DNA from: Gellertiella hungarica
GTDB lineage: Bacteria; Pseudomonadota; Alphaproteobacteria; Rhizobiales; Rhizobiaceae
Direction: 5' to 3'
Length of the DNA stretch: 64,000 nt
Assembly (NCBI RefSeq): GCF_014197145.1
Contig: NZ_JACIEZ010000001.1
Location: forward strand, 558,001-622,000
The notes under the pieces are model-generated. The model worked only from the letters and a program-made list of their open reading frames with translations. It had not been told where the DNA came from and made no database searches. The translations under genes were made by a program, and so were the position numbers. This document shows positions 49,663-51,723 of the stretch, piece by piece. Position 1 is the first letter of the stretch, and each line of letters begins with the position of its first letter.

Positions 49663-49923
49663 ATGACCACAGGACCGAACCGCATACTGGACGATTTCGC
49701 CAAACTCATGACCGACGCCGCCGGTGCCGCGCAGGGCCTGCGCAAGGAGGTCGAAACCGCCTTCCAGGCACAGGCGGAACGCTGGCTGAACGCCATGGAC
49801 ATCGTGAAGCGCGAAGAGTTCGAGGTGGTCCGCGAGATGGCGATCAAGGCGCGCGACGAGAACGAGGCGCTCAAGGCCCGCATCGTCGCCCTCGAGGCGA
49901 AGCTGGCCGAAAAAAGCGCCTGA
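49663..49923 (+). CDS. UbiK/BMFP-family accessory protein
   Basis: An 86-residue protein of the BMFP (formerly DUF526) family: an N-terminal amphipathic helix with LDDFAKLMTDAAGAAQGLRKEVE and a C-terminal coiled coil (EEFEVVREMAIKARDENEALKARI) that trimerises. UbiK relatives help ubiquinone synthesis by binding UbiJ and membrane lipids. The ATG at 49663 with AAGGAGAGAG fixes the start within a longer frame. A strong terminator follows at once. Confidence 0.88.
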   Translation: MTTGPNRILDDFAKLMTDAAGAAQGLRKEVETAFQAQAERWLNAMDIVKREEFEVVREMAIKARDENEALKARIVALEAKLAEKSA

Positions 49924-49947
49924 TCGCGCCCGAGCCGCATCAATCCG

Positions 49948-49978
49948 GCCGCCCTGTCCTGACGCAGGGCGGCTTTTT
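49948..49978 (+). terminator. intrinsic terminator after the UbiK-like gene
   Basis: GCCGCCCTG (49948-49956) pairs with CAGGGCGGC (49965-49973) around an eight-base loop and is followed by TTTTT. Confidence 0.9.
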
Positions 49979-50005
49979 CATTTCCGGGCTCTGCCGGGGT
50001 GTTTC

Positions 50006-50020
50006 TTAACCTTTTGTTAA
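50006..50020. promoter_or_regulatory. CtrA-type binding site TTAA-N7-TTAA
   Basis: TTAA (50006-50009) and TTAA (50017-50020) are separated by exactly seven bases (CCTTTTG), the full-site consensus of the cell-cycle regulator CtrA in alphaproteobacteria; both halves read TTAACCTTT. It lies about 390 bases before the YbjN start. Confidence 0.55.
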
Positions 50021-50037
50021 CCTTTGGCTGCCGCGAC

Positions 50038-50251
50038 CGATTCATGAATCGCCTGGCCCCCTGTCCATAGTTAAAAAAATCATAATTTTTTGCGCCTGTG
50101 GACATCTCCGAAAAAGCCAATCGCATGAGTCATTTATGACTCAACGCTGAATCGGATTCCGAACTGCTTTCCACAAGGCTTGCCCGCAAAACGCCCGGGG
50201 AGGGCTGGCGCTCGGATTCAGGCGTTATACACTGATTTTAAATGATGATTC
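50038..50251. promoter_or_regulatory. cluster of GANTC (CcrM-type) sites with palindromes, AT-rich repeat and DnaA-like boxes
   Basis: The 478-base gap 49924-50401 holds no gene. GANTC sites start at 50039, 50046, 50127, 50138, 50149, 50155, 50215 and 50247. Six of them form three inverted pairs: CGATTCATGAATCG (50038-50051), TGAGTCA-ttta-TGACTCA (50126-50143) and GAATC-G-GATTC (50149-50159). An AT-rich inverted repeat AAAAAAT-N4-ATTTTTT spans 50074-50091. CTTTCCACA (50167-50175) and TTATACACT (50225-50233) resemble DnaA boxes with two and one mismatches. The function is inferred only from motifs. Confidence 0.5.
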
Positions 50252-50401
50252 GAAACGGCCCCGGTCAGCCTCGTGCAGGGTCCGAACAGCAAAATCGAGA
50301 TCCGTTTCGACCGTCATCCTGAAATGAGTATCCGGTATTCCTGCGTCTGTGGCGTGCCTTGGGCACGAGGGGGATGCTTTTGCCGGTTGAAAAGGTGCCG
50401 C

Positions 50402-50902
50402 ATGAGCTTGATGGAAATGGAAGTTCAACGCCAGTCAAACCCGGTCGACATGATCGAGTTCGTGGCCGCCAGCAATGACTGGTCGTTCGAAAGGTCCGGC
50501 GAGGACGAAATCGCCATGACCGTGGAAGGGCGCTGGACCGATTACCACGTGTCCTTTTCCTGGATGGAGCAGTTCGAGGCCCTGCACATCGCCTCCGCCT
50601 TCGACATCAAGGTTCCGGAGAACCGGGTGAACGAGGTCATCCGGCTTCTGTCGATGATCAACGGTCAGGTTCTCATGGGTCATTTCGATCTGTGGCGGGC
50701 CGAGGACGTGGTGATCTTCCGCCAGTCGCTGCTGCTGGCGGGCGGTGCCGAGCCGAACAACCAGCAGGTCGAGGTTCTGCTCTCCAACGCGCTCGAATCC
50801 TGCGAGGCCTACTACCAGGCATTCCAGTTCGTGGTGTGGTCGGGCATGGAGGCCAAGGCCGCGCTCGATGCCGTTCTTTTCGAAACTGCCGGGGAAGCCT
50901 GA
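50402..50902 (+). CDS. YbjN domain-containing protein
   Basis: A 166-residue cytosolic protein of the YbjN family, which has a type III secretion chaperone-like fold. The core blocks are WRAEDVVIFRQSLLL and the helical C-terminus with QVEVLLSNALESCEAYYQAFQ. YbjN proteins affect stress responses and motility in enterobacteria, but the role here is unknown. The ATG at 50402 follows AAAAGGTG and is chosen over the frame start at 50273. It is followed by proC after two bases. It sits directly downstream of the GANTC/CtrA region. Confidence 0.85.
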   Translation: MSLMEMEVQRQSNPVDMIEFVAASNDWSFERSGEDEIAMTVEGRWTDYHVSFSWMEQFEALHIASAFDIKVPENRVNEVIRLLSMINGQVLMGHFDLWRAEDVVIFRQSLLLAGGAEPNNQQVEVLLSNALESCEAYYQAFQFVVWSGMEAKAALDAVLFETAGEA

Positions 50903-50904
50903 CA

Positions 50905-51723
50905 ATGACCGCCTTCCCCTCTGGTCCCATCGTTCTTGTCGGAGCCGGAAACATGGGGGGCGCCATGCTCACCGGCTGGCTGAAGAGCGGCATCCCCGGT
51001 TCTTCCGTGATCGTGGTCGATCCCCGCCCTTCCGATTCGCTTCTGCAGATGGTCAATGATGCCGGTGCCCGCCATGTGGTGGAGGCACCCGCCGGCGTGA
51101 CCGCAGGCATCTTCTTCATCGCGGTAAAGCCCCAGGTCATGGACAGCGTTCTGCCGCCGCTGCGCTCGCTGGTCGGGCCGCAGACGGTCGTGGTTTCCGT
51201 CGCCGCGGGCAAGACGCTCTCGTTCATCGAGGACAAGCTCGGCGCAAAGGCCATGGTGCGCGCCATGCCGAACACGCCCGCCATGATCGGGCGCGGCGTG
51301 ACGGGTGCCTATGCCAACGCGGCCGTGAGTGCCGAGCAGCGCAATGCGGTTCAGGCCCTGCTGAAGGTCAGCGGGCCGGTCGAGTGGGTTGAGTCCGAAG
51401 CGGATATCGATGCAGTCACGGCCGTCTCCGGCAGCGGACCGGCCTATGTCTTCTATCTCGTGGAGTGCATGGCAGAGGCAGGGCGGAAAGCGGGCCTGCC
51501 GGCGGACCTCGCCATGCGTCTTGCGCGAGAAACCGTCTCGGGGGCCGGTGAACTTCTTCACCGGTCCCCCGACGATGCGTCGCGTCTTCGGCAGAACGTG
51601 ACCTCACCCGGCGGCACTACGGCGGCCGCGCTCTCGGTGCTGATGGCGGAGGACGGCATGCAGCCGCTTTTCGACAAGGCGATCGAGGCAGCGAGGCTGC
51701 GTGCCGGCGAGCTGGCAGGCTGA
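50905..51723 (+). CDS. proC: pyrroline-5-carboxylate reductase
   Basis: A 272-residue NADPH-dependent enzyme making proline from pyrroline-5-carboxylate. The Rossmann motif is VLVGAGNMGGAML at the N-terminus, FIAVKPQVM marks the dinucleotide fold, and the C-terminal signature VTSPGGTTAAALSVL is complete. ATG at 50905 is two bases after the YbjN stop, so they form one operon with the CsaA-type gene 8 bases downstream. Confidence 0.96.
   Translation: MTAFPSGPIVLVGAGNMGGAMLTGWLKSGIPGSSVIVVDPRPSDSLLQMVNDAGARHVVEAPAGVTAGIFFIAVKPQVMDSVLPPLRSLVGPQTVVVSVAAGKTLSFIEDKLGAKAMVRAMPNTPAMIGRGVTGAYANAAVSAEQRNAVQALLKVSGPVEWVESEADIDAVTAVSGSGPAYVFYLVECMAEAGRKAGLPADLAMRLARETVSGAGELLHRSPDDASRLRQNVTSPGGTTAAALSVLMAEDGMQPLFDKAIEAARLRAGELAG

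Follow-up and report, generated by a model that had tools for sequence, protein, structure and literature searches.

The window, by which we mean the whole 64,000-nucleotide stretch of Gellertiella hungarica DNA that was analysed, contains ybjN and proC, which are probably co-transcribed, preceded by a region that the first-pass annotation had described as 478 bases free of genes. The coordinates agree with this description: the stop codon of the BMFP/YqiC-like gene ends at 49923, the ATG of ybjN lies at 50402, and 478 nt separate the two (Table 1). The BMFP/YqiC-like gene is followed by a terminator-like hairpin of 11 pairs (window 49947-49974).

Table 1. Genes and sequence features at the ybjN-proC locus, in window coordinates.
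Feature	Position	Strand	Remark
Gene-free stretch, BMFP/YqiC-like gene to ybjN	49924-50401	+	478 nt
Full CtrA-type site TTAA-N7-TTAA	50006-50020	none	4/81 loci: window and L015-L017
GATTCATGAATC palindrome, two GANTC	50039-50050	none	1/81 loci (window itself)
DnaA-box core 1, TGTGGACAT	50097-50105	-	core 131 bp upstream of -10
Conserved A5 tract	50111-50115	+	between DnaA box 1 and GANTCnnTTA
GANTCnnTTA	50127-50136	+	101 bp upstream of -10
GANTC at 50138, 50149, 50155	50138-50159	none	weaker conservation; with 50127 make two inverted pairs
DnaA-box core 2, CTTTCCACA	50167-50175	+	core at -58
Conserved GGGCTGGCG	50202-50210	+	candidate -35 CTGGCG at 50205-50210, spacer 17
Spacer GANTC, between -35 and -10	50215-50219	none	starts 13 bp before -10; N in relatives C, G, T, A
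Candidate -10 TACACT	50228-50233	+	elsewhere TAGACT, TATGCT, TACATT
Predicted ybjN mRNA 5' leader	50240-50401	+	possible 5' hairpin GAUGAUU/AAUCAUC, suggestive only
TGATTCG, GANTC with extended GcrA motif YGAKTCK	50246-50252	+	13 nt from -10 hexamer to GATTC
ybjN (PF10722)	50402-50902	+	
proC	50905-51723	+	start 2 nt past ybjN stop

The gene-free stretch had attracted attention for a perfect TTAA-N7-TTAA, a dense group of GANTC sites with three inverted pairs, and DnaA-box-like words, and all of these are present. The TTAA-N7-TTAA reads TTAACCTTTTGTTAA, and TGTGGACAT and CTTTCCACA are the two DnaA-box-like words. GANTC starts at 50039, 50046, 50127, 50138, 50149, 50155, 50215, and 50247; the inverted pairs are GATTCATGAATC, GAGTCAT-TT-ATGACTC (50127-50142), and GAATC-G-GATTC (50149-50159). 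Within the span first noted, the eight sites compare with 1.0 (sd 0.95) in dinucleotide shuffles, and within the whole gene-free stretch with 2.15 expected in shuffles; eight was reached in 0 of 2000 shuffles in either case. The enrichment is also seen against the own genome. In a 464-kb sample composed of the window and 20 stretches of 20 kb, all on contig C1, GANTC occurs 467 times (1.0 per kb) and TTAA-N7-TTAA five times, and the ybjN upstream region forms the top 250-bp GANTC cluster, with eight sites.

Conservation was assessed in four sets of loci. The near set contains the best 80 of 348 loci of YbjN relatives, which together with the window give 81. The further set draws 30 loci from other genera in the GTDB family of the window (31 genera with the window) and is the stronger test, because the near loci are related and non-independent. 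The third set holds 23 loci from other families of the order, one weak extra hit (L149) being excluded, and the fourth holds 29 loci from further families (1 of the order, 28 from the rest of the class), taken from 87 other class genomes with ybjN.

Much of the pattern first noticed is recent, because the full CtrA-type site is found at 4 of the 81 loci and the first and third GANTC palindromes at one locus each. The three relatives that share the CtrA-type site are the window's nearest by YbjN identity among the best 80 of 348. Retention of the full site in relatives, as in a CtrA regulon, was not found at the 81 loci beyond these four, and CtrA control was rejected as the main theme of the region for this lack of conservation; it would be limited at most to the window's closest relatives. 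Recent additions, as judged from this comparison, thus include the CtrA site and two palindromes out of three. Pairing of GANTC sites as such persists in one form, GAGTC-N6-GANTC, at 42 of 81 loci. A pattern of A5+/T5+ resembling the AT-rich inverted repeat occurs at 5 of 81 loci.

The best-conserved element lies at the putative core promoter. The arrangement TA...T-N13-GATTC is found upstream of ybjN at 80 of the 81 near loci, the sole miss being L055, where GATTC is broken, and at 30 of 30 loci from the other genera of the family. All 110 of these loci fit the extended motif YGAKTCK, as TGATTCG, TGATTCT, or CGATTCG, and a conserved GANTC at the core promoter, as sought for a GcrA/CcrM-dependent sigma70 promoter, is present almost throughout (80/81 and 30/30). 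A family genome outside the locus set (G009) has TACACT...TGATTCG 344 bp before its YbjN match. The hexamer in front varies among relatives in the manner of a -10 element (TACACT, TAGACT, TATGCT, TACATT). A strict consensus scan for sigma70 found no promoter here, the -35 being weak; conservation suggests a weak sigma70-like promoter, CTGGCG-N17-TACACT. Beyond the family the layout fades, as far as the sampled loci indicate: 5 of 23 loci from the order's other families and 0 of 29 loci from further families carry TA...T-N13-GATTC.

Two more GANTC sites are held at fixed distances. The spacer GANTC stands at exactly -13 at 34 of 80 near loci and 21 of 30 further loci, with N being C in 45, G in 4, T in 4, and A in 2; it is absent from the remaining 46 near and 9 further loci. 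GANTCnnTTA lies 100-102 bp from the -10 at 78 of 81 near loci, where N is G, and 98-102 bp from it at 24 of 30 further loci, with one more at 90 bp and N divided between A (13) and G (12); the background for this word is 0.003 per scan. At both sites the variation falls on N only, as would be expected had selection preserved a CcrM site. The 80 near loci also supply a control: a 160-bp stretch between lgt and ubiK holds 51 GANTC, against 216 in the ybjN stretch, and its mean information is 0.48 bits, against 1.06 bits.

DnaA-box cores accompany these sites. TCCACA occurs 42 times within 180 bp upstream of the -10 in the 31 genera, with 1.74 expected, and 124 times in the ybjN stretch of the 80 near loci, with 2 in the lgt-ubiK control. 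At least one core is present in 27 of 31 genera and at least two in 14, and none in 4. As would be expected of a DnaA-regulated promoter, the upstream boxes occupy conserved places. In 17 of 31 genera the near box is a plus-strand core at -56 to -59, and in one more it stands at -47; the far box, found in 16 of 31 genera, is TGTGGA at -129 to -132 in eight of them and plus-strand TCCACA at -134 to -137 in the other eight. Leaving aside the two of L110, seven cores fall outside these places, in six genera. In L110 (genome G019), both cores (-125 and -47) and GANTCnnTTA (-90) are displaced jointly by about 10-11 bp towards the -10, a shift of one helical turn that looks as if it had been deleted as a unit.

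The association of ybjN with DnaA boxes exceeds the promoter layout of the family, because strict boxes are enriched in other families as well. In the 400 bp upstream of ybjN, 52 other families carry 11 strict boxes (TT[A/T]TCCACA), spread over 10 of the 52. Second-order shuffles give an expectation of 0.4 and never exceed 2 in 200 sets; the flanking sequence of these loci also gives 0.4, and the reversed word is absent. Cores number 29 in these families, where shuffles give 7.5 and at most 16 and the reversed word occurs 5 times; they are present in 26 of the 52. The link is thus not confined to the family, yet it is not universal.

The sequence, spacing, and conservation of these sites are direct observations, and the explanation that accounts for them best, with a probability of about 0.68, is that the region is a cell-cycle promoter of ybjN-proC under DnaA and CcrM/GcrA control and tied to replication. 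The evidence throughout is comparative sequence, from which we infer the start site, the binding of DnaA and GcrA, methylation, and the sign and timing of the effect. The promoter would respond to two replication signals. DnaA would bind the near box, at about -57, and the far box, 130-137 bp before the -10. CcrM would methylate the GANTC sites, and selection appears to act on three of them: the spacer site, the TGATTCG past the presumed start, and GANTCnnTTA at -100. GcrA together with sigma70 RNA polymerase may read the methylated TGATTCG and aid the opening of the weak promoter, which bound DnaA would help to fire. Passage of the replication fork would leave the sites hemimethylated until CcrM acts again, and the output of ybjN would thereby be reset, changing once per cycle. 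In the window genome and its nearest kin, the extra CtrA site and GANTC sites probably tune the same promoter. A methylation-timed ybjN-proC promoter had been proposed at the outset; the proposal stands through the conserved TGATTCG/-10 pair, the spacer GANTC, GANTCnnTTA, and the DnaA boxes, and loses the CtrA site and the palindromes as its marks. Points against it include the weak -35, the position of the best-conserved GANTC downstream of the -10, and the loci that lack the spacer GANTC or DnaA cores.

Promoters of this kind are known. For Caulobacter, it has been hypothesized that activation by GcrA requires a methylated site reading TGATTCG or, in the broader form, YGAKTCK; in the same paper, the GcrA targets of Brevundimonas yielded no extended motif, and GcrA/CcrM target sets are said to be rewired among close relatives (PMC7987155). 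The ybjN promoter presents the opposite picture: its methylation sites and -10 keep a fixed spacing over about 30 genera, roughly half of which also have DnaA boxes in register. A Caulobacter gcrA mutant could grow with GcrA from S. meliloti or B. abortus, and these proteins bound a GANTC probe more strongly if it was methylated (PMC3667746). Further Caulobacter studies report that the set of genes misregulated in the absence of CcrM is enriched for those with a conserved GANTC in the promoter (PMC3973325), and that promoters often combine DnaA, CcrM, and GcrA sites (PMC4287350). In the latter study, only GANTC between -35 and -10 tracks activation at 40-60 min, and GANTC outside this interval marks start sites at their minimum at 40-60 min (PMC4287350).

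Caulobacter mipZ belongs to the DnaA and GcrA regulons and ftsZ to the DnaA regulon, and both are down without CcrM (PMC3973325). Their promoters resemble that of ybjN in that a conserved GANTC sits close to the core promoter and DnaA exerts control, as is predicted for ybjN. They differ in serving other genes, and the ybjN layout is rigid family-wide, with TGATTCG 13 nt past the -10. The A. tumefaciens gcrA promoter, described as having 6 GANTC in 250 bp and lower activity upon methylation (PMC11514494), likewise has a dense GANTC cluster upstream of a gene, gcrA, that belongs to the cell cycle. The window's own genome encodes GcrA (PF07750 above cut-off twice). Upstream of its gcrA (L151; G000:C2, 182129-182650, minus strand), 181 bp contain five GANTC, with four packed into about 37 bp, as in the A. 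tumefaciens gcrA type; unlike ybjN, this gene lacks both a DnaA core and a full CtrA site in the 500 bp upstream. The second GcrA-family gene (L152; G000:C11:106085-106543) has no GANTC in the 500 bp before its match.

A general promoter class with this spacing was considered and rejected, since outside ybjN the spacing is no commoner than shifted spacings. Matches to TA...T-N12-TGATTCG numbered 54 in 37 genomes, and 35 of these fell within the 23 family genomes. Twenty-one of the 35 are at ybjN, and the other 14 resemble shifted-spacing controls in the same 23 genomes (21 and 16). The ybjN site is the only match in the own genome. One family genome lacking a YbjN match (G010) has three matches, none of which shows the form TA[C/G]ACTGA usual in ybjN promoters.

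It is unlikely that the region is an ordinary sigma70 promoter with one unknown repressor or activator, whose operators resemble GANTC and DnaA boxes by accident. Such a regulator would suit the strongest block, TACACTGATTTTAAATGATGATTCGAAACG, which in near relatives is kept well past GATTC with N always T, and YGAKTCK is short. It would leave unaccounted for the two further GANTC sites, which hold GA and TC with N varying, and the DnaA cores, which vary outside TCCACA, lie on one strand or the other at box 1, and reappear in other families that lack most of the module.

A DnaA-handling element that overlaps the ybjN promoter by chance is quite improbable. Such an element, akin to datA in titration or to DARS in reactivation, would have the level or nucleotide state of DnaA as its main job, with GANTC marking replicated copies. 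Cores, A tract, and GANTC are indeed gathered within about 130 bp and hemE is distant; against this, the sites, where present, are mostly in register with the -10, most genera have one or two cores, and the spacing of E. coli datA and DARS differs from that of the ybjN region.

The presumed transcript offers another reading, in which a conserved RNA leader or small RNA accounts for the downstream block and GATGATT forms the 5' strand of a hairpin instead of a GcrA site. A conserved leader sequence, GtaAGcTcCggaCAgGgT..., is seen in window 50240-50330, where a possible hairpin closes on GATGATT of the predicted GcrA site. Over 30 leaders, 201 of 206 cells are paired in the 7-bp helix GAUGAUU/AAUCAUC, with at most 124 of 178 when slid, and single-sequence folds reach a shuffle p <= 0.05 in 24 of the 80 near leaders and 7 of the 30 further ones (L055 was excluded from the leader analyses). 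We nevertheless regard this reading as very improbable: no pair is changed on both sides, the helix comes from the very alignment in which its pairing was counted, the fold of the window leader does not surpass those of its shuffles (z -0.28), Rfam has no window match at gathering score, with four sub-threshold hits (E up to 5) in the gene-free stretch, and the upstream sites are left unexplained.

An origin of replication or origin-like element, suggested earlier as the lesser possibility and favoured by the joint occurrence of DnaA boxes, an AT-rich stretch, a CtrA site, and GANTC, is scarcely credible and was rejected: hemE adjacency fails, the AT-rich repeat pattern is unconserved (5/81 loci), the distance to hemE varies, the conserved sites stay at set distances from the -10, and GC skew is positive throughout this part of the window. 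The alphaproteobacterial oriC adjoins hemE and, like the ybjN region, contains DnaA boxes and GANTC, at another locus. In the own genome hemE is on a different contig (C12), beside two TGTGGAAAA boxes and three GANTC of its own, and the earlier remark that it is not near ybjN is correct. Among eight genomes searched, the two genes share one contig in seven and lie 0.66 to about 2.2 Mb apart (L024 about 1.19, L055 1.72 by the shorter arc, L052 1.69, L080 0.66, G001 1.22, G019 1.01, and G055 2.2 Mb), if contig C1 of four named genomes is equated with their named chromosome or scaffold; G028 has the two genes on separate contigs.

The conservation of the promoter layout across the family suggests an overlooked role of ybjN in the bacterial cell cycle. 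We found no report on the control of YbjN in Alphaproteobacteria among the titles and abstract beginnings of the open-licence literature, and within this limited search ybjN as a case of the known promoter kind is apparently unreported there. The gene is unnamed in the main texts of a CtrA study in S. meliloti (PMC4433202) and a CcrM-depletion study in A. tumefaciens (PMC11514494), whose supplements may carry its locus tag. It is conceivable, though less likely than not, that YbjN is an unrecognized core part of the cell cycle in Alphaproteobacteria. DnaA would then govern its expression in many lineages of the class, and in the rhizobial family a GcrA promoter of fixed geometry, timed by methylation, would add one pulse per replication. 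Found in 88 of 114 sampled genomes of the class, ybjN is a candidate worth testing for such a role, and its promoter offers a fixed, testable geometry for methylated GANTC and DnaA at one promoter.

YbjN of the window has 166 residues (PF10722), and its predicted structure has a mean pLDDT of 90. No solved relative was found by sequence at E 0.01. Foldseek with the predicted structure matched E. coli YbjN (6vu7, E 4.5e-5) and Erwinia AmyR (5fr7, E 8.5e-5), which share the fold of the window's YbjN at 12-13% identity. The fold also matches secretion-chaperone structures, and if YbjN is indeed a cell-cycle component, such a chaperone-like, protein-binding fold might let it target a protein of replication or division.

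The second-densest GANTC cluster of the 464-kb sample has six sites in 250 bp (L165:12449-12700, corresponding to G000:C1 about 652450-652700), and also holds one TTAA-N7-TTAA and one TGATTCG. The gene downstream (684 aa, starting at L165:12737) is presumably rpoD, which it resembles by eye.
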